Of a stretch of DNA of 64,000 nucleotides, positions 17,579 through 42,657 are shown one piece after another. Source of the stretch: Hymenobacter busanensis (lineage in GTDB: Bacteria; Bacteroidota; Bacteroidia; Cytophagales; Hymenobacteraceae); contig NZ_VTWU01000004.1 of NCBI RefSeq assembly GCF_008727865.1, positions 372,001 through 436,000 of the forward strand, written 5' to 3'. Both the position numbers and the translations under genes were made by a program. The number at the start of each line of letters is the position of its first letter. Positions within the stretch are counted from its first letter, which is position 1. The notes under the pieces are model-generated. The model was not told the DNA's origin, made no database searches, and saw only the letters and a list, made by a program, of their open reading frames with translations.

Positions 17579-17805
17579 AAGCGGCGGAGGCATACGTATA
17601 CGCAGCCAAGCACGGCGGCGCATGAATTGCCGAAGTGACACGCAGAAATTGGTGGCTGCGCCAACGCGGCCAATTGGCAACGTTCCCGGTAACGATGACG
17701 CAGAAAAATGCGCTGGGGAGGTGGGGAAGCCGCGGATTTTGCGCTAACATTCCTTGCCCAAGTTCTCTGGTGCGCGGTTGGGGGCGTGCCGTTTTTCCTT
17801 CGTTC

Positions 17806-18588
17806 ATGTCTGCTCGCCTTTTTGCCTGCTGCACGGCCGTGTTGCTGACGTTGCTGGCCTGGTTTCCTGCCGCGCCGGGCAAGATTACCGTGTACCTCAT
17901 CGGCGACTCCACCATGTCCATCAAACAGGTGAAGGCCTATCCCGAAACCGGTTGGGGCATGCCTTTTACCGCGTTTTTTGATGAGACGGTAACCGTAGAC
18001 AACCGTGCCCAGAACGGCCGCAGCACCCGCACGTTCATCGCCGAAAACCGCTGGCAGCCGGTGGCCGAGGCCCTAAAAGCCGGCGACTACGTATTCATCC
18101 AGTTCGGCCACAACGACGAGGTGCCCACCAAAGCCAGCTACACCACCGAAGCCGATTTCCGCACCAACCTCGTGCGTTTTATCACCGAAACGCGGGCCAA
18201 AAAAGCCACGCCGGTGCTGCTCACGCCGGTGGCCCGCCGCAAATTCGACGCGGCCGGCAAAATCGAAGAAACCCATGCGGTGTACGCCAACATCGTGCGG
18301 GCCGTAGCCCAGGAACAGAGCGTCCCGCTCATCGACCTCGACCAAACCAGCCAGGCCTTGCTGCAGCAGTTCGGCGTCGAAAACTCCAAGCTGCTCTTCA
18401 ACCAGCTGGCGCCCGGCGAGCATCCCAACTACCCCGACGGCCGCGACGACAACACGCACTTTTCGGAGCTGGGGGCCCGCAAAATGGCCCAGCTGGTGCT
18501 GGCCGACATCCGCCGCCTGAAGCTGGAGCTGGCCGACCGCTTGGTGAAGCAGCAAGTCAAGAAAACCGTGGACCCGCAGGCGCGGTAG
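17806..18588 (+). CDS. Rhamnogalacturonan acetylesterase-like SGNH hydrolase (CE12 type)
   Basis: A 260-residue secreted SGNH/GDSL esterase with an N-terminal signal peptide. Block I is IGDSTMS with the nucleophile Ser35, block II NRAQNGRSTRTF, block III FGHNDE, and block V DDNTHFSELGA with the catalytic Asp and His. This pattern fits family CE12 rhamnogalacturonan acetylesterases, which remove acetyl groups from pectin. It is the first of two closely similar genes, followed by two pectinesterases in the same direction. The short upstream in-frame extension to 17635 gives no signal peptide, so 17806 is the better start. Confidence 0.88.
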   Translation: MSARLFACCTAVLLTLLAWFPAAPGKITVYLIGDSTMSIKQVKAYPETGWGMPFTAFFDETVTVDNRAQNGRSTRTFIAENRWQPVAEALKAGDYVFIQFGHNDEVPTKASYTTEADFRTNLVRFITETRAKKATPVLLTPVARRKFDAAGKIEETHAVYANIVRAVAQEQSVPLIDLDQTSQALLQQFGVENSKLLFNQLAPGEHPNYPDGRDDNTHFSELGARKMAQLVLADIRRLKLELADRLVKQQVKKTVDPQAR

Positions 18589-18713
18589 GGTGCGCTGCAC
18601 GCACGCGCTGTGCATCGAGCGCGTGCTCATCAACGATTCTCTGCCGCCGAGGTGAGTTGCTAACCATACCAATTACCACAAACGGGGCGTGCGATGTGCC
18701 CTGATCAGCTGCT

Positions 18714-19538
18714 ATGAAACACAACGACCCGGCGCGTACCGTGCGCCCCTATATCTTGCTCCTGCTGGTGCTCATGGCCTTCACGGCCCCGGCGCCGCCC
18801 AAGAAAATCAAGCTCTACTTGATTGGCGACTCCACCATTGCCCAGAAAATCAAGCAGACCTTTCCCGAAACCGGCTGGGGCATGCCGCTGGGCACGTTTT
18901 TCGACTCGACGGTGGTGGTAGACAACCGCGCCCAGAATGGCCGCAGCACGCGCACTTTTCTGGCCGAAAACCGCTGGCAGCCGATTGTGGACGCCCTGCA
19001 GCCCGACGATTACGTGCTGATTCAGTTCGGCCACAACGACGAGGCCAAGGACAAGCCGGACCGCTACACCTCGCCGGAAGACTACCGCCGGAACCTGCTG
19101 AAATTCGTGGCCGAAACGCGCGCCAAGAAGGCCAACCCGGTGCTCATCACGCCCGTCACGCGCCGCAAGTTCGACAAGGAAGGCCGCATCATGGAAACCC
19201 ACGTGGAATACTCGGCCGCTACGGCGGAGGTAGCTACGGCCCAGAAAGTACCGCTCATCGACCTCGACCGGATGAGCCGCAACCTACTGCAGCAATACGG
19301 CGCCGACGGCTCCAAAGTCCTGTTCCTGCAGCTCGGCCCCGACGAGCACCCCAACTACCCGCAGGGCCGCAACGACAACACACACTTCTCGGAGCTGGGG
19401 GCCCGCAAAATGGCGCAATTGGTGGTGTATGAGATGCGGGCGCAGAAGCTGCCGCTGGCCGAACGCATAGCCAAGCCGCTGCCCAAAAACGCCACGCTCA
19501 CGGCCTCGCCCGCCAACAGTCAACCCACGACTCCGTGA
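18714..19538 (+). CDS. Rhamnogalacturonan acetylesterase-like SGNH hydrolase, second copy
   Basis: A 274-residue paralogue of the preceding protein. The same blocks occur in the same order: IGDSTIA with nucleophile Ser40, NRAQNGRSTRTF, FGHNDEAKDKPD and DNTHFSELGARKMAQLV. A hydrophobic N-terminal segment suggests export. The two proteins share long stretches across their whole length, so they arose by tandem duplication. It differs in the region after the GHND block and has a longer, Thr- and Pro-rich C-terminus, so the substrate may have diverged. Its stop codon overlaps the GTG start of the next gene, suggesting translational coupling in an operon of three genes. Confidence 0.88.
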   Translation: MKHNDPARTVRPYILLLLVLMAFTAPAPPKKIKLYLIGDSTIAQKIKQTFPETGWGMPLGTFFDSTVVVDNRAQNGRSTRTFLAENRWQPIVDALQPDDYVLIQFGHNDEAKDKPDRYTSPEDYRRNLLKFVAETRAKKANPVLITPVTRRKFDKEGRIMETHVEYSAATAEVATAQKVPLIDLDRMSRNLLQQYGADGSKVLFLQLGPDEHPNYPQGRNDNTHFSELGARKMAQLVVYEMRAQKLPLAERIAKPLPKNATLTASPANSQPTTP

Positions 19539-20503
19539 AGCCGCTGCTGTTATTTCTGGTTCTGAGCGGGCTCCTGCTCGAACGAGCTTTCGGCCAAACC
19601 ACGGCCGCCAAATACGATTTTGTGGTGGCGCAGGACGGCAGCGGGCAGTTTCGCACGGTGCAGGAAGCCTTCAACGCCGTGCCCGATTTCCGAAAGAAAG
19701 TCACCACCATTCTGGTGAAAAAAGGCACCTACAAGGAAAAGCTCATTCTGGCCGGCTCGAAGCAGCTGGTGCGGCTGGTGGGGGAGGACCGCGACCGGAC
19801 CATCCTCACCTACGACGACTACAACCAGAAGAAAAACATCTTCGGCGAAGACAAGGGCACCTCGGGCTCGGCCAGCTGCTACCTCTACGGCACCGATTTT
19901 ACGGCCGAAAACCTCACGTTCCAGAACTCCTCGGGGCCCGTGGGGCAGGCCGTGGCGCTGTGGGTGGCCGGCGACAAAATGCGTTTCCGCAACTGCCGCT
20001 TCCTGGGCTTTCAGGATACGCTCTACACCTACGGCCACGGCAGCCGGCAATTCTACCAGGACTGCTACATCGAAGGCACCGTGGATTTCATTTTCGGCTC
20101 CAGCACGGCGTGGTTTGAGAACTGCACCATCTTCTGCAAGCAAAGCGGCTACGTAACGGCCGCTTCCACGCCCGACACCACGCGCTACGGCTACGTGTTC
20201 AACCGCTGCCGTATTGTCGGCGACGCGCCCGCGGGCAGTTTCCGGCTGGGCCGACCGTGGCGGCCCTACGCCAAAACCGTGTACCTGCAGTGCGAGCTGG
20301 GCCGCCCGATTGCGCCCGAAGGCTGGGACCATTGGGGCAAGGAAACCAACAAGCAAACCGCCTACTACGCCGAGTTTCAGAGCCGCGGCCCCGGTGCGGC
20401 GTCCAAGCAGCGCGTGCCCTGGTCGCACCAGCTGACGGAGGATGAAGCCAAGCTCTACACGCTGCCGAACGTGCTACACGGCTGGGACCCCACCAAAGAC
20501 TAA
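19535..20503 (+). CDS. Pectinesterase (carbohydrate esterase family 8)
   Basis: A 322-residue secreted right-handed beta-helix enzyme with a signal peptide ending near ERAFGQ. It hydrolyses methyl esters of polygalacturonate. The four CE8 signatures are visible: GPVGQAVAL (oxyanion glutamine) near residue 143, FQDTLY (first catalytic Asp) near 166, IEGTVDFIFG (second catalytic Asp) near 187, and LGRPWRPY (substrate arginine) near 244. Translation starts at a GTG that overlaps the stop of the preceding acetylesterase; no better start is available. The next pectinesterase begins 2 nt after its stop. Confidence 0.94.
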   Translation: MKPLLLFLVLSGLLLERAFGQTTAAKYDFVVAQDGSGQFRTVQEAFNAVPDFRKKVTTILVKKGTYKEKLILAGSKQLVRLVGEDRDRTILTYDDYNQKKNIFGEDKGTSGSASCYLYGTDFTAENLTFQNSSGPVGQAVALWVAGDKMRFRNCRFLGFQDTLYTYGHGSRQFYQDCYIEGTVDFIFGSSTAWFENCTIFCKQSGYVTAASTPDTTRYGYVFNRCRIVGDAPAGSFRLGRPWRPYAKTVYLQCELGRPIAPEGWDHWGKETNKQTAYYAEFQSRGPGAASKQRVPWSHQLTEDEAKLYTLPNVLHGWDPTKD

Positions 20504-20504
20504 C

Positions 20505-21506
20505 ATGGCCCCCGGAAATCTATTGCTGGCCGCCGCGCTGCTGACTTCGTTTTCTGCCCTGGCCCAAGCAACGCCGCCTGCTACGGCAACCACCCAGGCG
20601 CCCGCGCCGCAAATCACGCGCCTGACCGTGGCCGCCGACGGCACCGGCGACTACCGCACCGTGCAGGAAGCCGTGAATGCCGTGCGCGACCTGTCGCAGG
20701 TGACGGTAACCATCTTCATTCGCAACGGGGTATACCGCGAAAAACTGGTGGTGCCGGCCCACAAAATCAACGTGCGGCTGGTGGGCGAAAGCCGCGAGGG
20801 CACCGTCATCAGCTACGCCGACTACTCCGGCGACGCGGCCAAGCACACCACCTACACGTCCTACACGGTGCTGGTGCAAGGCAACGACTTCACGGCCGAA
20901 AACCTCACCATTGCCAACACGGCCGGCCCCGTGGGGCAGGCCGTGGCCCTGCACGTAACCGGCGACCGGGCGCAGTTCCGCCGCTGCCGCTTGCTCGGCC
21001 ACCAGGACACTTTGTTTGCCGCCGTCGACAACAGCCGGCAGTACTACCAGGACTGCTACATTGAAGGCACGACGGATTTTATCTTCGGCCCGGCCACGGC
21101 GGTGTTTGAGGGCTGCACGCTGCACAGCAAGAAGAACTCCTACCTCACGGCCGCCGCTACCCCGCCCAGCCAGCCCTACGGCTTTGTGTTTCTGGGCTGC
21201 ACGCTCACCGCCGACTCCATTGCCCAGAAAGTATACCTGGGACGGCCTTGGCGGCCCCACGCAAAAACGGTGTTTCTGAACACCACTATGGGGCCCCACA
21301 TTACGCCCGCCGGTTGGGAAAACTGGCGCAACCCCGCCAACGAAAAAACGGCCTTCTATGCCGAATACCGCTCTGCCGGGCCTGGCGCCACCGCCGCTGG
21401 CCGCGTGCCGTGGGCGCACCAGCTCACGGCCAAACAGGCCCGGCAGTACACCCTGAAAGCTATTTTCGGTGGCGCTACGCCGTGGCTGCCCGCTGAAAAG
21501 CAGTAA
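20505..21506 (+). CDS. Pectinesterase (carbohydrate esterase family 8), second copy
   Basis: A 333-residue paralogue of the preceding enzyme with a signal peptide ending near ALAQ and a Thr/Ala/Pro-rich linker before the catalytic domain. The motifs GPVGQAVALHV, GHQDTLFA, IEGTTDFIFG and LGRPWRPH are all intact, so it should be active. The start at 20505 gives a good signal peptide, whereas an upstream in-frame ATG at 20442 lies inside the previous gene. This gene ends the four-gene pectin esterase cassette. No pectate lyase, polygalacturonase or SusC/SusD pair is visible in the window. Confidence 0.93.
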   Translation: MAPGNLLLAAALLTSFSALAQATPPATATTQAPAPQITRLTVAADGTGDYRTVQEAVNAVRDLSQVTVTIFIRNGVYREKLVVPAHKINVRLVGESREGTVISYADYSGDAAKHTTYTSYTVLVQGNDFTAENLTIANTAGPVGQAVALHVTGDRAQFRRCRLLGHQDTLFAAVDNSRQYYQDCYIEGTTDFIFGPATAVFEGCTLHSKKNSYLTAAATPPSQPYGFVFLGCTLTADSIAQKVYLGRPWRPHAKTVFLNTTMGPHITPAGWENWRNPANEKTAFYAEYRSAGPGATAAGRVPWAHQLTAKQARQYTLKAIFGGATPWLPAEKQ

Positions 21507-22471: not shown

Positions 22472-25075
22472 ATGACGCAAGAATCTACCCGAGAGATTCG
22501 CACGGCTGAGCCGTGCGAAATCGAAACCCAAGAACGAATCCACGTCAAAGGAAAGTTTTTGATGTGGGGTAACGAAAAGTTTTACCTCAAAGGCGTCACC
22601 TACGGCACGTTTTGCCCCGATGCCGACGGCAACCAGTATCCGCCCGCCGAAGTCGTGGACATTGATTTTGCCGCCATGGCCGACAACGGCATCAACTCCG
22701 TGCGCACCTATACGCCCCCGCCGGTGTATTTGCTCGACAAAGCGCTGGAGTACGGCCTGAAAGTGATGGTGGGCCTGCCGTGGGAGCAGCACCTCACGTT
22801 TCTCGACAAACCGGAGCAGGCCCGGCGCATCGTGGCCGACATGCGCGCCCAGGTGCGCGCCCTGCAGCAGCACCCGGCCATTCTGTGCTACGCCATCGGC
22901 AACGAAATACCGGCCACCATTGTGCGCTGGTACGGCGAAACCAAAATCACGCAGTTTCTGCACCGCCTCTACAACGCGGTGAAGGCCGAAGACCCCGCCG
23001 GGTTGGTGACGTACGTGAACTTCCCGACCACGGAATACCTCACGCTGCCCTTCCTCGACTTCTTCTGCTTCAACGTGTACCTGGAGACGCCGGAGAAGAT
23101 GAACGGCTACATTGCCAAGCTCCACAACCTCATCGGCGACAAACCGCTGCTGCTGGCCGAAGTGGGGCTCGACAGCCAGCGCAACGGCGTGGAGAAGCAA
23201 GCCGAAAGCCTGGCCTGGCAGCTCAAACTCATCTTCGCCAAAGGCTGTGTGGGCACCTTCGTGTTTGCCTGGACCGACGAATGGTGGCGCGGCGGCTTCG
23301 ACATCGAAGACTGGGACTTCGGCCTCGTCGACCGCAACCGGCAGCCCAAGCCCGCGCTGCACGCCGTAAGCCAGGTGTACGCCGACGCGCCGTTTCCCAA
23401 CGACGATTTGCCGTTCATTTCGGTGGCCGTGTGCTCCTACAACGGCTCGGCCACCATCCGCGACACCCTGGAGGGGCTGATGGCGCTGGACTACCCCAAT
23501 TTTGAGGTAATTGTGGTGAACGACGGCTCCACCGACAACTTGCTGGACATCGTCAGCGAGTACGACGTGCAACTCATCAGCACCGAAAACCAGGGCCTGA
23601 GCAACGCCCGCAACACGGCCCTCTACGCGGCTCAGGGCGAAATCGTGGCCTACATCGACGACGACGCCTACCCCGACCCGCAGTGGCTGCGCTACCTGGC
23701 CTACGCGTTCCTGAGCTCCGACCACGCCGGCATTGGCGGCCCCAACCTGCCGCCCGCCGACGACGGCCTGATTGCGCATTGCGTGGCCAACGCCCCCGGC
23801 GGCCCCGTGCACGTGCTCACCACCGACGAGCTGGCCGAGCATATTCCGGGCTGCAACATGGCGTTTCGGCGCGAGGTGCTGCTGGAAGTCGGCGGCTTCG
23901 ACCCCATTTACCGCGCCGCCGGCGACGACGTGGACCTGTGCTGGCGCGTGCTGCACACCGGGCGCACCATTGGGTTTCATGCCGCCGCCTTTGTCTGGCA
24001 CCACCGCCGCAACTCGGTGAAAATGTACTGGCGCCAACAAAAAGGCTACGGCAAGGCCGAGGCGCTGCTGGAAGGCAAGTGGCCGCAGAAATACAACAGC
24101 TTCGGGCACCTTTCCTGGACCGGCCGCATCTACGGCAACGGCCTCACGCTGCCCATTCAGATGGGCAAACGCAAGATTTTCCACGGCACCTGGGGCTCGG
24201 CTCTGTTTCAGTCGGTCTACGAGCAGGCGCCCAACTCCGTGGCCTACCTGCCGCTTATGCCCGAGTGGTTTCTGCTGATGGGGCTGCTGGCCGTGCTGTC
24301 GGTGCTGTCGGTGCTGTGGCAGCCGCTGCTGTGGGCTCTGCCGCTGCTCGTTGTCACCTGCCTGGTGGTACTGACGCAGGCCGCCCTCAGCGCCGCCCGC
24401 GCCGACATGCGCCACGTGCACGGGCGGTTTACCAAAGCGCGGCTGTTTGCCCTCACCACGCTGCTGCACCTCATGCAGCCCGTGGCACGCCTCTACGGCC
24501 GCATCCAGCACGGCCTCACGCCGTGGCGCAAGCGCAGCAGCGGCGAGCAGTCGTTCAGCGGCCTGCTCCAGCTCACCAAGTGCCAGGAATCCTGGTCGGA
24601 GGAGTGGCACCCCGCCGAAGAACTGCTGGCGCGGGTGGAGCACGACCTGCTGAGCCGCAAAGTGCGCGCCCGGCGCGGCGGCACCTTCGATAGATGGGAC
24701 CTGCAGGCGAGTTGCAGCTTCTTCTCCGGAGCGCGGGCCATCATGGCCATCGAAGAGCACGGGGGCGGCCGCATGATGATCAAGTTCAAGTCGTGGTCGG
24801 TGCTGAGCCAGTCGGCCTACGTCATCATCGGGCTGCTGCTCGGCCTCTCGGTCCTTGCGGTAGCCGGCCAGGCCTACGTGCTGATGGACGTGTTGCTGAT
24901 GCTGACAGTTCTCTTCGTCGGCCACTGCCTGCTGGATATGTCCCGCTCGATGAGCGACCTGGCGCAAGCCTTCAATAGCCTGTCGGCCCCGCAGGCGGCG
25001 CCTGCCCGCAACGTTGTGCTGCACGCTCCGGTCCTGAGCGAACAGCTCGACTACGGCAACTACAAGCTGGCCTAA
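22472..25075 (+). CDS. Glycoside hydrolase-like/family 2 glycosyltransferase fusion, membrane-anchored
   Basis: An 867-residue two-enzyme fusion. Residues about 25-305 form a clan-A-like TIM barrel resembling the GH2 catalytic domain: FYLKGVTYG, GINSVRTYTPPP, AIGNEIP (acid/base Glu145) and LLLAEVGLDS (nucleophile Glu230). Residues about 313-560 are a GT2 domain with VAVCSYNGS, NDGSTD (350-355), YIDDDAYPD (DxD, 396-398) and GDDVDLCWR (484-492). Two hydrophobic helices follow at about 597-640 and two more at about 785-835. There is no signal peptide, so both catalytic domains are predicted cytoplasmic. The ABC exporter and GNAT genes downstream suggest it makes an oligosaccharide or glycolipid that is then exported. 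The polymer is unknown. Confidence 0.85.
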   Translation: MTQESTREIRTAEPCEIETQERIHVKGKFLMWGNEKFYLKGVTYGTFCPDADGNQYPPAEVVDIDFAAMADNGINSVRTYTPPPVYLLDKALEYGLKVMVGLPWEQHLTFLDKPEQARRIVADMRAQVRALQQHPAILCYAIGNEIPATIVRWYGETKITQFLHRLYNAVKAEDPAGLVTYVNFPTTEYLTLPFLDFFCFNVYLETPEKMNGYIAKLHNLIGDKPLLLAEVGLDSQRNGVEKQAESLAWQLKLIFAKGCVGTFVFAWTDEWWRGGFDIEDWDFGLVDRNRQPKPALHAVSQVYADAPFPNDDLPFISVAVCSYNGSATIRDTLEGLMALDYPNFEVIVVNDGSTDNLLDIVSEYDVQLISTENQGLSNARNTALYAAQGEIVAYIDDDAYPDPQWLRYLAYAFLSSDHAGIGGPNLPPADDGLIAHCVANAPGGPVHVLTTDELAEHIPGCNMAFRREVLLEVGGFDPIYRAAGDDVDLCWRVLHTGRTIGFHAAAFVWHHRRNSVKMYWRQQKGYGKAEALLEGKWPQKYNSFGHLSWTGRIYGNGLTLPIQMGKRKIFHGTWGSALFQSVYEQAPNSVAYLPLMPEWFLLMGLLAVLSVLSVLWQPLLWALPLLVVTCLVVLTQAALSAARADMRHVHGRFTKARLFALTTLLHLMQPVARLYGRIQHGLTPWRKRSSGEQSFSGLLQLTKCQESWSEEWHPAEELLARVEHDLLSRKVRARRGGTFDRWDLQASCSFFSGARAIMAIEEHGGGRMMIKFKSWSVLSQSAYVIIGLLLGLSVLAVAGQAYVLMDVLLMLTVLFVGHCLLDMSRSMSDLAQAFNSLSAPQAAPARNVVLHAPVLSEQLDYGNYKLA

Positions 25076-25082
25076 CCGCCCC

Positions 25083-25125
25083 GCCCACCCGACAGCCTCG
25101 CTCCTGAGCCGGCTGCCGGGTGGGC
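25083..25125 (+). promoter_or_regulatory. Strong hairpin between the fusion gene and the ABC exporter
   Basis: The 15-nt arms at 25083-25097 and 25111-25125 pair with one mismatch around a 13-nt loop. There is no T tract, so it is more likely an mRNA-stability, processing or attenuation element than a terminator. Confidence 0.55.
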
Positions 25126-25162
25126 AAGCCGTTCCGATTTGCGCCACCTGCTCCTCTGCCTC

Positions 25163-26956
25163 ATGAATACCGTTCAACTGCTTGCCCGCTTGTCGAGGTA
25201 CGTATTTCGCTACGCCGGCCAGCTCGTTTTTCTGATTATCATCGGCCTCCTCGGGGTCGTGTTTGAGGTGCTCAAGCCGCTGCCCATCAAGCTCGTCATC
25301 GACAACGTGCTGGGCAGCCAGCCGGTGCCGGCCCTGCTCACCCGCCTGACGGGGCCCGCGGCTTTCGTGCACGACAAAAGCCAGCTGCTGCTGGCGTTGG
25401 TTGTCTTCACGGGCGTCGTTACCATTGGCGGGGCGGTATTCTCGGCGGCCGTGGTGCGCCTGACGGTGGCGCTGGGCCGCAAGCTGGTGTACGACCTGTC
25501 GCTGGAGCTGTACCGCAAGCTGCAGCAAATGTCCCTCACGTTCTACGCCCAAAACAAGCTCGGTGACCTGCTCACGCGCATCACCGGCGACGTGTTTGTG
25601 GTGTACTTCGTGGTGGCCCAGATCATCGTACCGGCCATCATTTCGGTGGTGTGCATGGGCGCCATGCTCTACGTGATGGTACAGCTGGATCTGGTGCTGG
25701 CCCTCATTGCCATATCGGTGGTGCCGCTGCTGATTCTGGCCCTGGCGCTGTTTTTTAAGCCCATGGACCAAACCACGGCCGCGCAGTTTGCCCGGCAGGG
25801 CGAACTGTCGGCCTTCGTGCAGCAAAGCCTGACGGGCATCAAAACCATCCAGAGTTTTGCCCGCGAGCAGCTCATGTTTCAGAAGCTGGAGCAGCAGGCC
25901 GCCGATTTCGGCAACGCCTTCCAGAAAGCCACCGTGGTGGGCACCACCTACAACCAGCTGACAGCCCTGATAACCGGGCTGGCGGCGGCGGCGCTGCTGG
26001 GTGTGGGGGCCTACCGCGGCTTGCAGGGCCACCTCACCGCCGGCGACCTGTTCATCTTCATCGGCTACGTGAGTGCGCTCTACGCGCCCGTCAACGCCCT
26101 GTCGACGGCGGTGGGCGCGGCCATTGCGGTGGTGTCGCGCAGCCGGCGGGTATTCGAGATTCTCGACTCCGAGGACGTGGTGCCGGAAGTGCCCGGCGCC
26201 GTGGCCCTCGACGCCAGCGGCCTCATCACCTTTCACGACGTGAGCTTCGGCTACGCCACCAGCAGCGGCCCGCCGCGCGAGGTGCTGCAGGGCATCAGCT
26301 TTCAGGTGCTGCCGGGGCAGGTTATTGCCATTGTAGGGCCCACGGGCGCCGGCAAAACCTCCATTATTTCGCTGCTGCTGCGGTTTTACGACCCCTGGCG
26401 CGGCCACATTTCCCTCGACGGCCTCGACCTGCGCGAGCTGCAGCTGCAGTCGTTGCGCGAAAACATGTCGCTGGTGCTGCAGGAGCCGCTGCTGTTCCCC
26501 ATTTCCATCCTCGACAACATCCGTTTCGGCAACCCCGAGGCCACGATGGAGGAAGTGGTGGAAGCGGCCCAGGCCGCGCAGGCCCACGACTTCATCCGGA
26601 AGCTGCCCGACGGCTACGATACCGTGGTGGGCGAGCTGAGCGCCACGCTGTCGGGCGGCGAAAAGCAGCGCATTGCCATTGCGCGGGCCTTCCTCAAAAA
26701 AGCGCCCATCCTGATTCTGGACGAGCCCACTTCGGCCCTCGACAGCCTCACCGAAGCCCGCATTTTCAAGGCCCTCGACCGGTTTGCCCAGCGCAAAACC
26801 GTGTTCATCATCTCGCACAAGTTCTCGACCATCCGCCACGCCGACCAGATTGTCATCATCAAAGACGGGCAGGTGGCCGAGCACGGCACCCACCAGGACT
26901 TGCTGGCCCGCGGCGAAGTGTACGCCGACCTGTACAAGCACCAGCACATTTCCTGA
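25163..26956 (+). CDS. ABC transporter, fused permease and ATPase (exporter type)
   Basis: A 597-residue half-transporter of the MsbA/exporter class: six membrane helices in about residues 15-310 and an ATPase domain after 340. The ATPase has Walker A GPTGAGKT, the signature LSGGEKQRIAIARAF, Walker B ILILDEPTSALD and the switch histidine in FIISHKFST. It probably works as a homodimer in the inner membrane. It follows the hydrolase-glycosyltransferase fusion by 87 bp and precedes an acetyltransferase, so its cargo is likely the glycan made by that fusion, comparable in layout to glucan exporters; that is inference. The start at 25163 is the first ATG. Confidence 0.9.
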   Translation: MNTVQLLARLSRYVFRYAGQLVFLIIIGLLGVVFEVLKPLPIKLVIDNVLGSQPVPALLTRLTGPAAFVHDKSQLLLALVVFTGVVTIGGAVFSAAVVRLTVALGRKLVYDLSLELYRKLQQMSLTFYAQNKLGDLLTRITGDVFVVYFVVAQIIVPAIISVVCMGAMLYVMVQLDLVLALIAISVVPLLILALALFFKPMDQTTAAQFARQGELSAFVQQSLTGIKTIQSFAREQLMFQKLEQQAADFGNAFQKATVVGTTYNQLTALITGLAAAALLGVGAYRGLQGHLTAGDLFIFIGYVSALYAPVNALSTAVGAAIAVVSRSRRVFEILDSEDVVPEVPGAVALDASGLITFHDVSFGYATSSGPPREVLQGISFQVLPGQVIAIVGPTGAGKTSIISLLLRFYDPWRGHISLDGLDLRELQLQSLRENMSLVLQEPLLFPISILDNIRFGNPEATMEEVVEAAQAAQAHDFIRKLPDGYDTVVGELSATLSGGEKQRIAIARAFLKKAPILILDEPTSALDSLTEARIFKALDRFAQRKTVFIISHKFSTIRHADQIVIIKDGQVAEHGTHQDLLARGEVYADLYKHQHIS

Positions 26957-27015
26957 CGGCCCTCGGCCCGGCAACGGTGCCGGCATTTTCGTTTCATCCC
27001 CTTTTTCGCGCTGCT

Positions 27016-28002
27016 ATGGCTATTACCTACCGAATGAACACCGATGCCGACGAAGCTGCGCTGGTGGATTTGTGGACCCGCCACTCCGATTGGGGCAGCC
27101 TCACCGTCGACGAATGGGAGCATAAGTTTCTGCGCACGCCCGGCGGCCCGGCCACTTTTGTGCTGGCCGTGGAAGACGACACCCAGGAAATTGTGGCCCA
27201 GACCGCCTACGTGCCGTACCCCATCGTCGCCAACGGCCACGAAATAACCGCATTCCGGCCCTTTGGCATTATCGTCAACGAGAGCTTCCGCAGCAAATCG
27301 GGCTTTTTGCGCATGCAGCAGATGGTCATCAAGATGTACACGATGGCCGCCGACCAATTCGCCAGCCAGGGCGTGGATTTGCTGTTTATGATGCCCGACC
27401 CGCGCTGGTCGCGCATTGTGAAAATGATGCCCTTTTTCCAGACGACCACGTTTCCGCTCTGGAGCCACCCGCTGCCGCTGAGCCAGCCGGAGCCGCTGCC
27501 CAGCGGCTACGCGGTGGCACCCATCGAGCCCGGCGACGCCCGCATCGACGAGTTGTGGCAGCAGGCAGCCGGGCTGTACCGGTGCATGGTGACCCGCGAC
27601 ACGCGCACGCTGCCCTGGAAAATCAGCCACGGGGCCTACCAACTGTTCGGCGTGAGCCACCAGGGCCAGCTAGTCGGGTTTTTTGCCTCCATTGCGAAGC
27701 GAAAAGACAACCAGTGGCTGCTAACCGATATGGTAACGGCCGACAACCACGCCGCCCTGCAGGCCACGCTGCGCGCCGCGTGCCTGGTTGTCCAGGAGCA
27801 GTACGAGCGGTTGCCGGAAGAAGACCGAGTGGCCTACCGCAAGATTGCCGTGCTCAGCACGCCGCCCATGGAGCCGGTGTTGCAGCAGCTGGGTTTCCAG
27901 CGCGACAAATACGATTTCCTGCTGGTGGTGCACGCCCTCAACAAGAAGCTCACGAAGGAGCAAGTGTCGCCGGCGCAGTGGTACGTTAGCGCCAACGACT
28001 AA
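27016..28002 (+). CDS. GNAT family N-acetyltransferase
   Basis: A 328-residue protein with an N-terminal GNAT-like domain beginning ITYRMNTDADEAALVDLW and continuing through the strand AFRPFGIIVNESFRSKSG, which corresponds to the acetyl-CoA-binding region, and QFASQGVDLLFMMPDPR. The C-terminal half may be a second, degenerate GNAT-like module. It lies 59 bp after the exporter in the same direction and ends at a strong terminator, so it is the last gene of the glycan unit. It might acylate the exported sugar or a lipid, but no substrate can be read. The start at 27016 follows the family N-terminus. Confidence 0.75.
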   Translation: MAITYRMNTDADEAALVDLWTRHSDWGSLTVDEWEHKFLRTPGGPATFVLAVEDDTQEIVAQTAYVPYPIVANGHEITAFRPFGIIVNESFRSKSGFLRMQQMVIKMYTMAADQFASQGVDLLFMMPDPRWSRIVKMMPFFQTTTFPLWSHPLPLSQPEPLPSGYAVAPIEPGDARIDELWQQAAGLYRCMVTRDTRTLPWKISHGAYQLFGVSHQGQLVGFFASIAKRKDNQWLLTDMVTADNHAALQATLRAACLVVQEQYERLPEEDRVAYRKIAVLSTPPMEPVLQQLGFQRDKYDFLLVVHALNKKLTKEQVSPAQWYVSAND

Positions 28003-28092
28003 GCAGACGACGGTTTTGCGGTTGGCTTTTAGGTTCAGAGTAGGGTAGGCAGGCTCCTGGTACAACCCTGCCCCAGGGCAGAGCGTTGAACG

Positions 28093-28126
28093 AAAGAGCC
28101 CCGGGCTGCGTCCGGGGCTCTTTCTT
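28093..28126 (+). terminator. Intrinsic terminator of the glycan operon
   Basis: A perfect 12-bp stem AAAGAGCCCCGG / CCGGGGCTCTTT with a 7-nt loop, ending in a T-rich tail. Confidence 0.88.
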
Positions 28127-40845: not shown

Positions 40846-42657
40846 TTACGCCGCCGTGTCGCCCACTTCGTCCTCATCGTCCACCATCACCCGGGCCAGC
40901 TTCTCGATGTTAAGACTGCGCGCCGAGGCGTCGAAAATCTCGCGGTAGGTGCCGCGCAGGTCGTAGAGTTGCTCGTGGGTGCCGCTTTCCACCATGCGGC
41001 CCTGCTTCATCACGTAAATGCAGTCGGCATCCACAATCTGGGCCAGGGAATGGGAGATGATGACCACCGTGCGGCCCTGCTTGATGGCTTCGAGGGAGTT
41101 CTTGATTTGCTCGGTGGCAATGGCGTCGAGCGAGGCGGTGGGCTCGTCGAGGAAGATGATGGGCGGGTTTTTCAGGAACAGCCGGGCAATGGCAATGCGC
41201 TGCTGCTGCCCGCCCGAGAGCTGCTGGGCGTCGCTCTCGTAGCCCTTAGGCAGGTCCATGATCTGCTCGTGCAAATACGCCTGCCGGGCCGCGTGCTGCA
41301 CCTGCTCGAAGCTGGCGTCCATTACACCGTAGCGGATGTTTTCCTCGATGGTGCCCTTGAAAATGTGGTTTTTCTGGAGCACCAGTCCAATGCGCTGGCG
41401 CAGGGCGTGGGTGTCATAGTCGGCCAGCGGCTTGCCGTCGAGCAGCATTTTGCCGCTATCCGGCTCGTAGAACTTGCAGAGCAGGTTGATGACGGTGCTT
41501 TTGCCCGCGCCGGAGAGGCCCACCAGCGCGGTGGTTTTGCCTTCCTCAATGGTCAGGCACACGTCGTGCAGGGCTTGGGTGCCGCTGGGGTAGGTGAAGT
41601 CGACGTTGCAAATCTCGAAGGTGCCGCGCACGTTGTCGGCGGGCAGCTGGCCGGGTTTTTCGCGGGCGTCGGCGGCGTCGATGATGTCGAAGAAGCCCTC
41701 GGAGTAGGTGAGGGCGTCGTTCATTTCGTCGTAGATGCGGTGCAGCTGCCGGATGGGCGCCGACACGTTGTTGAACAGCAGAATGTGGAACATGATGGCC
41801 CCGATGCTGATCTGGCCGTCGAGCACGAGGTAGGCGGTGAGGATGATGATGAGCACCACGCCCACTTGCTCGGTAAAGGTTTTGAGGCCGTCGTAAAGGA
41901 AGTTGAGCTTGCGCGTCTGGAGCTGGGCGGCCTGCAACTGTGCCTGCAAGCCGGCCTGCTTCTGCTCCTCGTAGTCTTCGCGCACGAAGCTTTTGATGAC
42001 CACCGCCGAGTCGATGAGGTTGACTAGGCCCTGGCTTTTCTGCTCGCGCAGGCTGCGCAGGCCGCGGCGGGTGCCGTTGAGGCGGTCGGCTTGCCGGTAG
42101 CTCAGCCAGAAGTACACCGGCATCACGGCCACCGCCACCAGCCCCACATACACGTTGGCCGTGAACATGACCACCAGGGCCACAATGGCGTTGGCAAACA
42201 GCGGCAGGATGTCGATGAAGAAGTTCTGCACCAGCTTCATCAGGCTCTCCACGCCCCGGTCGATGCGCGTCTGGAGCTTGCCGGTCTGGTTGCCGCTGTC
42301 GGAGTAGAAGCCGAGCTGGTAGGAGAGAATCTTGCGCACGGCCTCCTGCGACAGGTCGCTGGAGACGTTGATGCGGATTTTCTCGCCGTAGAACTTCTGC
42401 CCGAACTGAATGAAGGTGTTAACGATTTCCTTGCCCAGCAGCAGCCCGCTCACCAGCAGCAGCAGGTCGGCACCCTGTGCCAGCCCCAGGCCGCGGTTGA
42501 GCAGCCCCTGCACCGTATCCACGGTGTAGCGCAGCACAAACGGATTCACCTGCGCCGCCAACGAGCCCACCAGCGTCAGCAGCAGCGTGCCAATGACCAG
42601 CGGGCGGTAAGGGCGAACGTACGGGTAAAGGCGTTTGATAATTTCCCAGAGGCTCAT
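40846..42657 (-). CDS. ABC transporter, fused permease and ATPase
   Basis: A 603-residue exporter-type half-transporter. Six membrane helices lie in about residues 15-300. The ATPase domain has Walker A GLSGAGKST near residue 380, the signature LSGGQQQRIAIARLF near 480, Walker B PPIIFLDEPTASLD near 500 and the switch histidine in VVIISHSLAQ near 535. The C-terminal tail is acidic (DDEDEVGDTAA). It likely exports a lipid or drug-like substrate as a homodimer. A 46-bp copy of its 3' end lies at 39432-39477, showing past duplication. It is not obviously operonic. Confidence 0.9.
   Translation of the reverse strand: MSLWEIIKRLYPYVRPYRPLVIGTLLLTLVGSLAAQVNPFVLRYTVDTVQGLLNRGLGLAQGADLLLLVSGLLLGKEIVNTFIQFGQKFYGEKIRINVSSDLSQEAVRKILSYQLGFYSDSGNQTGKLQTRIDRGVESLMKLVQNFFIDILPLFANAIVALVVMFTANVYVGLVAVAVMPVYFWLSYRQADRLNGTRRGLRSLREQKSQGLVNLIDSAVVIKSFVREDYEEQKQAGLQAQLQAAQLQTRKLNFLYDGLKTFTEQVGVVLIIILTAYLVLDGQISIGAIMFHILLFNNVSAPIRQLHRIYDEMNDALTYSEGFFDIIDAADAREKPGQLPADNVRGTFEICNVDFTYPSGTQALHDVCLTIEEGKTTALVGLSGAGKSTVINLLCKFYEPDSGKMLLDGKPLADYDTHALRQRIGLVLQKNHIFKGTIEENIRYGVMDASFEQVQHAARQAYLHEQIMDLPKGYESDAQQLSGGQQQRIAIARLFLKNPPIIFLDEPTASLDAIATEQIKNSLEAIKQGRTVVIISHSLAQIVDADCIYVMKQGRMVESGTHEQLYDLRGTYREIFDASARSLNIEKLARVMVDDEDEVGDTAA

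Follow-up and report, generated by a model that had tools for sequence, protein, structure and literature searches.

Gene content and architecture of the locus

We examined a 64,000-nucleotide stretch of the Hymenobacter busanensis genome (GCF_008727865.1, contig NZ_VTWU01000004.1, positions 372,001 to 436,000; hereafter the window), in which three genes on the forward strand (+) encode an 867-residue glycosidase-glycosyltransferase family 2 (GT2) fusion (P0001, 22472..25075), a 597-residue ATP-binding cassette (ABC) exporter with membrane and ATPase domains in one chain (P0002, 25163..26956) and a 328-residue GNAT-fold protein (P0003, 27016..28002). The fusion was recognized from its open reading frame (ORF), Pfam matches and an AlphaFold2 (AF2) model, the exporter from Pfam and NCBIfam, and the GNAT-fold protein from AF2 and Foldseek, its Pfam match lying below cut-off. 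Alternative starts are also open at TTG 25139 for the ABC ORF (ATG at 25163) and at GTG 26977 for the GNAT ORF. The initial annotation, which took the set for a glycan synthesis and export unit closed by a strong terminator, was right about the shared direction of the genes and about their end, where an intrinsic terminator with a 15-bp stem lies at 28092..28124 (+, RNA z-score -7.7). A further strong hairpin, without a U-run, separates the fusion and ABC genes (25083..25125, +, RNA fold z -4.4) and perhaps serves attenuation or mRNA processing.

Pfam resolved the fusion into a barrel at residues 24-303 (22541..23380, +; Glyco_hydro_2_C, 49.1 bits, cut-off 21) and a GT2 domain at residues 316-540 (23417..24091, +; Glycos_transf_2 at 317-472, 104.1 bits, cut-off 23.3), joined by a linker of 12 residues without a membrane helix. 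The AF2 model (pLDDT 87.4, pTM 0.86), built on an alignment of 71 of the 83 sequences described below, runs from the barrel through the short linker to the GT2 fold, a long-helix hairpin (~residues 599-642, 24266..24397, +), a small alpha-beta domain (~residues 700-778, 24569..24805, +) and a second hairpin (~residues 780-835, 24809..24976, +). Both membrane hairpins are also apparent from hydropathy, in agreement with the membrane helices annotated initially. Before residue 590 no 19-residue stretch has a mean hydropathy above 1.6, and the first membrane-type hairpin of the model begins only at about residue 599. GT2 enzymes draw on cytoplasmic sugar nucleotides, and because no helix intervenes between barrel and GT2 domain the barrel is also predicted to be cytoplasmic; this location and the absence of a signal peptide, likewise proposed at the outset, are well supported by hydropathy and model. 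The genome contains a single copy of the fusion, and one further match to the barrel, weak and partial (E 0.008).

Active sites and kinship of the catalytic domains

To our knowledge it is unusual for glycosidase and glycosyltransferase active sites to lie in one cytoplasmic protein. Relatives were gathered by scanning 84,980 species genomes with two patterns; of the 388 pattern matches, 308 passed a loose tblastn test as candidate relatives. We fetched the 80 best of these 308, which all cover barrel and GT2 domain at best-segment identities of 49-63% and which, with three others, make up 83 aligned sequences, the window included, from 18 phyla named by NCBI; one locus (L018) was removed before counting as a duplicate of L062, a Chlorobium record, and L103, from the one further carrier in the window's family, lies outside the 83. 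Phylum names follow submitters' titles and NCBI.

Clan GH-A retaining glycosidases combine a TIM barrel with two catalytic glutamates, the first of which follows an asparagine. The barrel has this arrangement in alignment, model and Foldseek comparison alike: Asn144, Glu145 (predicted acid/base, codon 22904..22906, +) and Glu230 (predicted nucleophile, codon 23159..23161, +) are invariant in 83/83 sequences, and the activity is a predicted one. Since the scan patterns lie at residues 265-283, neither glutamate was directly selected for. The initial annotation had named both glutamates as catalytic and treated their loss across the family as grounds for abandoning its reading; they are retained throughout. 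A barrel that is no longer an enzyme and merely holds the chain has a precedent in inactive glycosidase domains known to serve as binding modules, and is very improbable given that R78, N144, E145, Y203 and E230 are all conserved in 83/83 sequences across the 18 named phyla.

The same annotation called the barrel GH2-like, and here the intact barrel stands and the family does not. Glyco_hydro_2_C occurs alone, with neither Glyco_hydro_2 nor Glyco_hydro_2_N among the seven Pfam families found at E 0.1, and a GH2 enzyme was rejected on that ground. When the barrel alone was compared with solved structures by phmmer, LaGH157 (its identity taken from PDB titles) came first (1.3e-10), ahead of GH158 (5e-5) and a beta-galactosidase (5e-4). 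The family profile also placed LaGH157 first (1.1e-14), followed by a beta-galacturonidase (2.4e-10), a beta-galactosidase (1.1e-9), beta-glucuronidases (from 7e-9) and GH158 (6.7e-8), as did Foldseek (LaGH157 7e-16, beta-glucuronidase 1.8e-12, GH158 7.5e-12). The GH157 endo-beta-1,3-glucanase LaGH157 (9fz9/9g4n/9g5g) is therefore the best match in both sequence and fold among solved structures, and its nucleophile position, residue 224, aligns with Glu230, being Glu in 9fz9 and Ala in 9g4n, an entry titled as the E224A laminaritriose complex. Judged by its closest solved relatives, in sequence and in predicted fold, the barrel is GH157-like rather than GH2-like.

The GT2 domain is complete, as first annotated. 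Glycos_transf_2 scores well over its cut-off, and the DxD motif at Asp396-Asp397-Asp398 (23657..23665, +) has D396 and D398 in 83/83 sequences and D397 in 81/83. Of the curated NCBIfam families, MftF (the mycofactocin glycosyltransferase) fits the GT2 part best, over residues 304-660; that match excludes the barrel and reaches 137 bits against a cut-off of 280. By alignment and model, one chain thus carries two intact sites, that of GT2 and that of a retaining clan-A glycosidase, both predicted to be on the cytoplasmic side.

Mean pairwise identity among the 83 sequences is 0.62 in the barrel and 0.68 in the GT2 domain, compared with 0.42 in the first hairpin, 0.43 in the alpha-beta domain and 0.24 in the second hairpin. 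This contrast, 62-68% in the catalytic domains versus 24-43% in the membrane and C-terminal parts, suggests that selection holds both catalytic domains, although caution is needed because the 80 fetched are those nearest to the window among the 308 candidates.

Distribution and genomic partners of the fusion

The distribution of the fusion is sparse yet wide. A full-length homologue was found in 3/395 genomes of the phylum sample besides the window's own, with a fifth match to GT2 only (the sample counts the Chlorobium record L018/L062 as belonging to the window's own phylum), and the family sample held the fusion in 2/204 genomes, the window's own included. Relatives of the fusion reach phyla as distant from one another as Bacteroidota, Nitrospirota, Cyanobacteriota and Actinomycetota, and the 18 named phyla rule out a unit confined to Bacteroidota. 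On the tree of the 83 sequences the phylum label changes 28 times, against a minimum of 17 and a shuffle average of 58, and phyla are therefore largely clustered with some mixing; two Acidobacteriota bins, for example, branch next to Bacteroidota. Transfer between phyla is likely on this evidence, not proved, because many of the records are metagenome bins. Carriage on mobile elements left no trace in the collections covered: no match was found on plasmids at E 1e-60, and viral contigs gave no relative among 33 pattern matches, a phage collection not being searched. The GC content per kb at 22-28 kb (0.555-0.655, the low value in the first kb, which is half intergenic) shows no sign of recent foreign DNA relative to flanks of 0.58-0.66.

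The export half of the proposed unit recurs with the fusion. P0002 contains ABC_membrane and ABC_tran in one chain, as a fused exporter should, which agrees with the original assignment. Its top NCBIfam scores are to MsbA-type models, it also matches PglK, and it remains below cut-off for each of the 25 NCBIfam models among the matches listed. ChvA and NdvA are the names given to the ABC exporter of cyclic beta-1,2-glucan, and membership of that group was rejected on scores below cut-off (TIGR01192, 291.6 against 585.4; NF010178, 365.9 against 733). Exporters were counted in the 72 assessable of 82 fusion loci, the other 10 being too short: in 64 of the 72, from 15 named phyla, an ABC exporter on the strand of the fusion has its end no more than 3.2 kb downstream of it, and in four the exporter lies farther downstream. 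The unit predicted at the outset is real, recurrent and probably active, with a broader distribution and other components than the initial annotation had supposed. The four cyanobacterial loci that were fetched (L037, L039, L045 and L057) and four others (L026, L030, L050 and L071) each have the fusion followed by a pair of ABC exporter genes, as if a heterodimeric exporter had replaced a single one.

The third gene behaves differently. P0003 matches Acetyltransf_9 in Pfam at only 15.5 bits, below the cut-off of 25. Its AF2 model (pLDDT 91.4) returned GNATs as the Foldseek matches listed, among them Eis-type and N-myristoyltransferases, and on the strength of this model it has a GNAT fold with a predicted use of acetyl-CoA. 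A conserved fusion-ABC-GNAT trio, which the initial annotation would have taken as support, was rejected: a GNAT occurs in 5/82 loci and was not found in the other 77, some of which are incomplete. It is doubled in three of the five (L020, L021 and L038), where two unlike tandem copies differ in closeness to P0003, at 43, 34 and 41% identity against 24, 19 and 24%. In the 204 family and 395 phylum genomes sampled, P0003 matched only in the window's own genome, and the four other sampled fusion carriers (G033, G010, G366 and G399) gave no match.

Were fusion, exporter and GNAT chance neighbours with no functional relation, such scarcity of the GNAT would be expected, as would its distance of ~6 kb from the fusion in one locus (L023), and the exporter rate was counted without a random-gene control. 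Chance is nonetheless scarcely credible as the whole explanation, with a same-strand exporter so regularly close to the fusion across 15 named phyla, and with relatives of P0003 so rare in the samples and yet present at five fusion loci.

Profiles built from the relatives, counted at E 1e-5 on either strand anywhere in the fetched locus, revealed further partners: a GT-B-like protein in 56/82 loci, kinases of the APH type in 26/82, GalE-like epimerases in 25/82 and hexapeptide acyltransferases in 24/82, with two copies in 23. The kinases and epimerases are common families counted without a control. The GT-B-like family (~390 residues; for example L021:14412-15614, A6) resembles glycosyltransferases only weakly in Pfam and PDB comparisons, and the one member scanned had no match in NCBIfam. 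None of the four profiles matched in the window; the GT-B-like partner from L021 gave no match in the window's genome (an uncontrolled negative), and the L021 hexapeptide protein was matched there twice, each time partially, at 31-34% identity. Among the remaining neighbours are pyruvyl transferases, YdjC-like proteins, methyltransferases, UDP-glucose dehydrogenase, ATP-grasp and aminotransferase proteins, the recurrent types being sugar-nucleotide, glycosyl-, acyl- and pyruvyl-transferase genes. The scan of neighbour families covered 307 of 308 ORFs of at least 150 residues (one of 898 residues was excluded), picked mechanically, so that some are not genes, and excluded five loci whose fusion the ORF picker had missed (L051, L056, L060, L077 and L095).

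The product might be a small decorated glycoside, a diffusible metabolite and not a surface glycan, made by an MftF-like GT2 domain acting on a small acceptor and trimmed by the barrel, as the MftF match and the numbers of APH-type kinases and hexapeptide acyltransferases would suggest; the MftF score falls short of its cut-off, however, and no recurrent family of acceptor-scaffold enzymes appears among the neighbour families listed, which leaves this proposal improbable.

Proposed function and comparison with known systems

We put at even chances the proposal that the fusion acts as a glycan synthase bound to the membrane, which contains its own glycosidase or transglycosidase and whose product the ABC protein exports. 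The GT2 domain would add sugars to an acceptor or growing chain, and the GH157-like barrel would cut that chain or release it from the acceptor, or alternatively transfer part of it to a sugar hydroxyl, resulting in branching, cyclising or joining. The exporter would then carry the completed oligosaccharide or glycoconjugate through the inner membrane, and decoration could be supplied by acyltransferases (here the GNAT, in relatives the hexapeptide pairs) and by extra glycosyltransferases. The earlier suggestion that synthesis and trimming or transglycosylation take place together in the cytoplasm stands as regards location, both domains being predicted on that side, and we only infer the chemistry, whether hydrolysis or transglycosylation.

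Several observations weigh against this proposal or restrict it. Processive synthases carry a Q(Q/R)xRW motif after the catalytic base; it occurs in 0/83 sequences, which points to stepwise or oligosaccharide synthesis and away from cellulose-type processive synthesis; a loose QxxRW occurs in 11/83, every one at position 149 or 768, outside GT2. The fold match to LaGH157, confined to the barrel with no glycosyltransferase part, has ~18% identity and TM-scores of 0.31 by query and 0.49 by target, and in the profile search the places between LaGH157 and GH158 go to galacturonidases, galactosidases and glucuronidases of the GH2 type; with identity so low and GH2-type enzymes so close behind, specificity is not fixed. 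Four of the 72 loci (L066, L084, L086 and L088) have no same-strand downstream exporter, the first of them carrying one on the other strand. The initial annotation had regarded homologues without ABC and GNAT genes as contrary evidence, and such homologues are common for the GNAT (77/82) and hardly found for the exporter (4/72). Fusion and exporter are separated by a GT-B-like gene at three or more of the 64 loci (L016, L019 and L028), and likewise in L103. In favour of the pairing, the genome of the window (4.9 Mb) has eight ABC_membrane matches, from which a random gene would have a chance of ~0.3% of an exporter so placed; this is simple arithmetic (eight times 3.2 kb, divided by both strands of 4.9 Mb) for that genome, without a random-gene control on the relatives. 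The relatives' exporters score from ~750 down to 320 bits against P0002, so that the pairing is conserved in kind and not always by descent, and some loci may have exchanged their exporter for another.

The absence of the motif in 83/83 sequences also ruled out a processive GT2 of the BcsA type (cellulose- or curdlan-like), and it would suit a different product, a lipid-linked glycan or glycolipid built on a lipid by the GT2 domain and partner glycosyltransferases, edited or released by the barrel and flipped by a PglK- or MsbA-like ABC protein. The ranking of P0002 with MsbA-type models and its match to PglK agree with such a pathway, and the extra glycosyltransferases, epimerases and pyruvyl transferases nearby are usual for surface glycoconjugates. 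The exporter nevertheless stays below the cut-off of every listed NCBIfam model, and no lipid-priming sugar-phosphate transferase or O-antigen flippase/polymerase was found among the neighbour families listed (25 each out of 64, 52 and 73, from 307 neighbour proteins), where LpxB does appear twice; we regard the lipid-linked product as unlikely, although deserving of serious weight.

For the synthase with a built-in glycosidase, the nearest functional parallel is cyclic beta-1,2-glucan synthase (Cgs; ChvB/NdvB), to which the initial annotation had likened the fusion while noting different domains. Cgs is a single membrane protein that combines a glycosyltransferase with domains for glycan processing, all soluble domains being cytoplasmic (PMC10901819), and its product has an ABC exporter, Cgt (PMC11842490); the division of labour proposed here would be the same. 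Cgs is a far larger GT84 protein, as opposed to GT2 with other partner genes here, and its processing domains are a GH94 phosphorylase and a transglycosylase (GH189) related to GH144/GH162 (PMC10901819, PMC11842490) where the fusion has a clan-A barrel. Membership of Cgs was rejected: GH94 phosphorylase and cyclase domains are not among the fusion's seven Pfam families at E 0.1, and the likeness in function with different domain content holds.

The pseudomonad 'Orphan'/NdvB cyclic beta-1,3-glucan synthase is closer in domain order, with a TIM-barrel glycosidase (GH17) N-terminal to GT2, for which PMC10237404 proposes beta-1,3-glucan processing. In that protein a periplasmic location is predicted for GH17, which membrane helices separate from GT2, and the GT2 has Q(Q/R)xRW (PMC10237404), whereas here the GH157-like barrel is predicted to be cytoplasmic and the motif is absent in 83/83 sequences. 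Neither 'ABC transporter' nor 'NdvA' occurs as a term in the main text of that paper. An NdvB-type GH17-GT2 protein was also rejected, with no GH17 match, a GH72 match of only 15.2 bits, below cut-off, and no helix between barrel and GT2.

Because of the GH157 kinship, a backbone of the beta-1,3-glucan type is the first candidate to test, a Bacteroides GH157 enzyme having linear beta-1,3-glucan as substrate (PMC10229575); as the product of the fusion, beta-1,3-glucan is only a lead. At somewhat less than even probability, we suggest that the loci represent an undescribed and probably horizontally exchanged pan-phylum pathway, in which a GH157-like/GT2 synthase, an ABC exporter and often the GT-B-like family make glucans or glycoconjugates that are short and perhaps cyclic or branched. 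A literature search that reached neither most subscription journals nor any bioRxiv preprints found no account of the fusion or cluster among the titles and abstract openings listed, which is weak evidence of novelty. Cgs is the known case with an exporter partner, and its cyclic glucans matter for osmotic adaptation and host contact (PMC10901819); the fusion would be a second, unrelated architecture. The 62-68% catalytic-domain identity across 18 named phyla (best 80 and three others) suggests a useful and exchangeable product, and the locus offers an exporter and a well-defined enzyme with evident active-site residues to mutate, together with, in relatives, a GT-B-like partner family hardly seen by Pfam or NCBIfam.

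Elsewhere in the window, a further ABC exporter gene lies at 40846-42657 (-). Upstream of the fusion on the same strand (17635-21506), two tandem pectinesterases and two GDSL esterases form a pectin-type degradation set, apparently unrelated to the unit.

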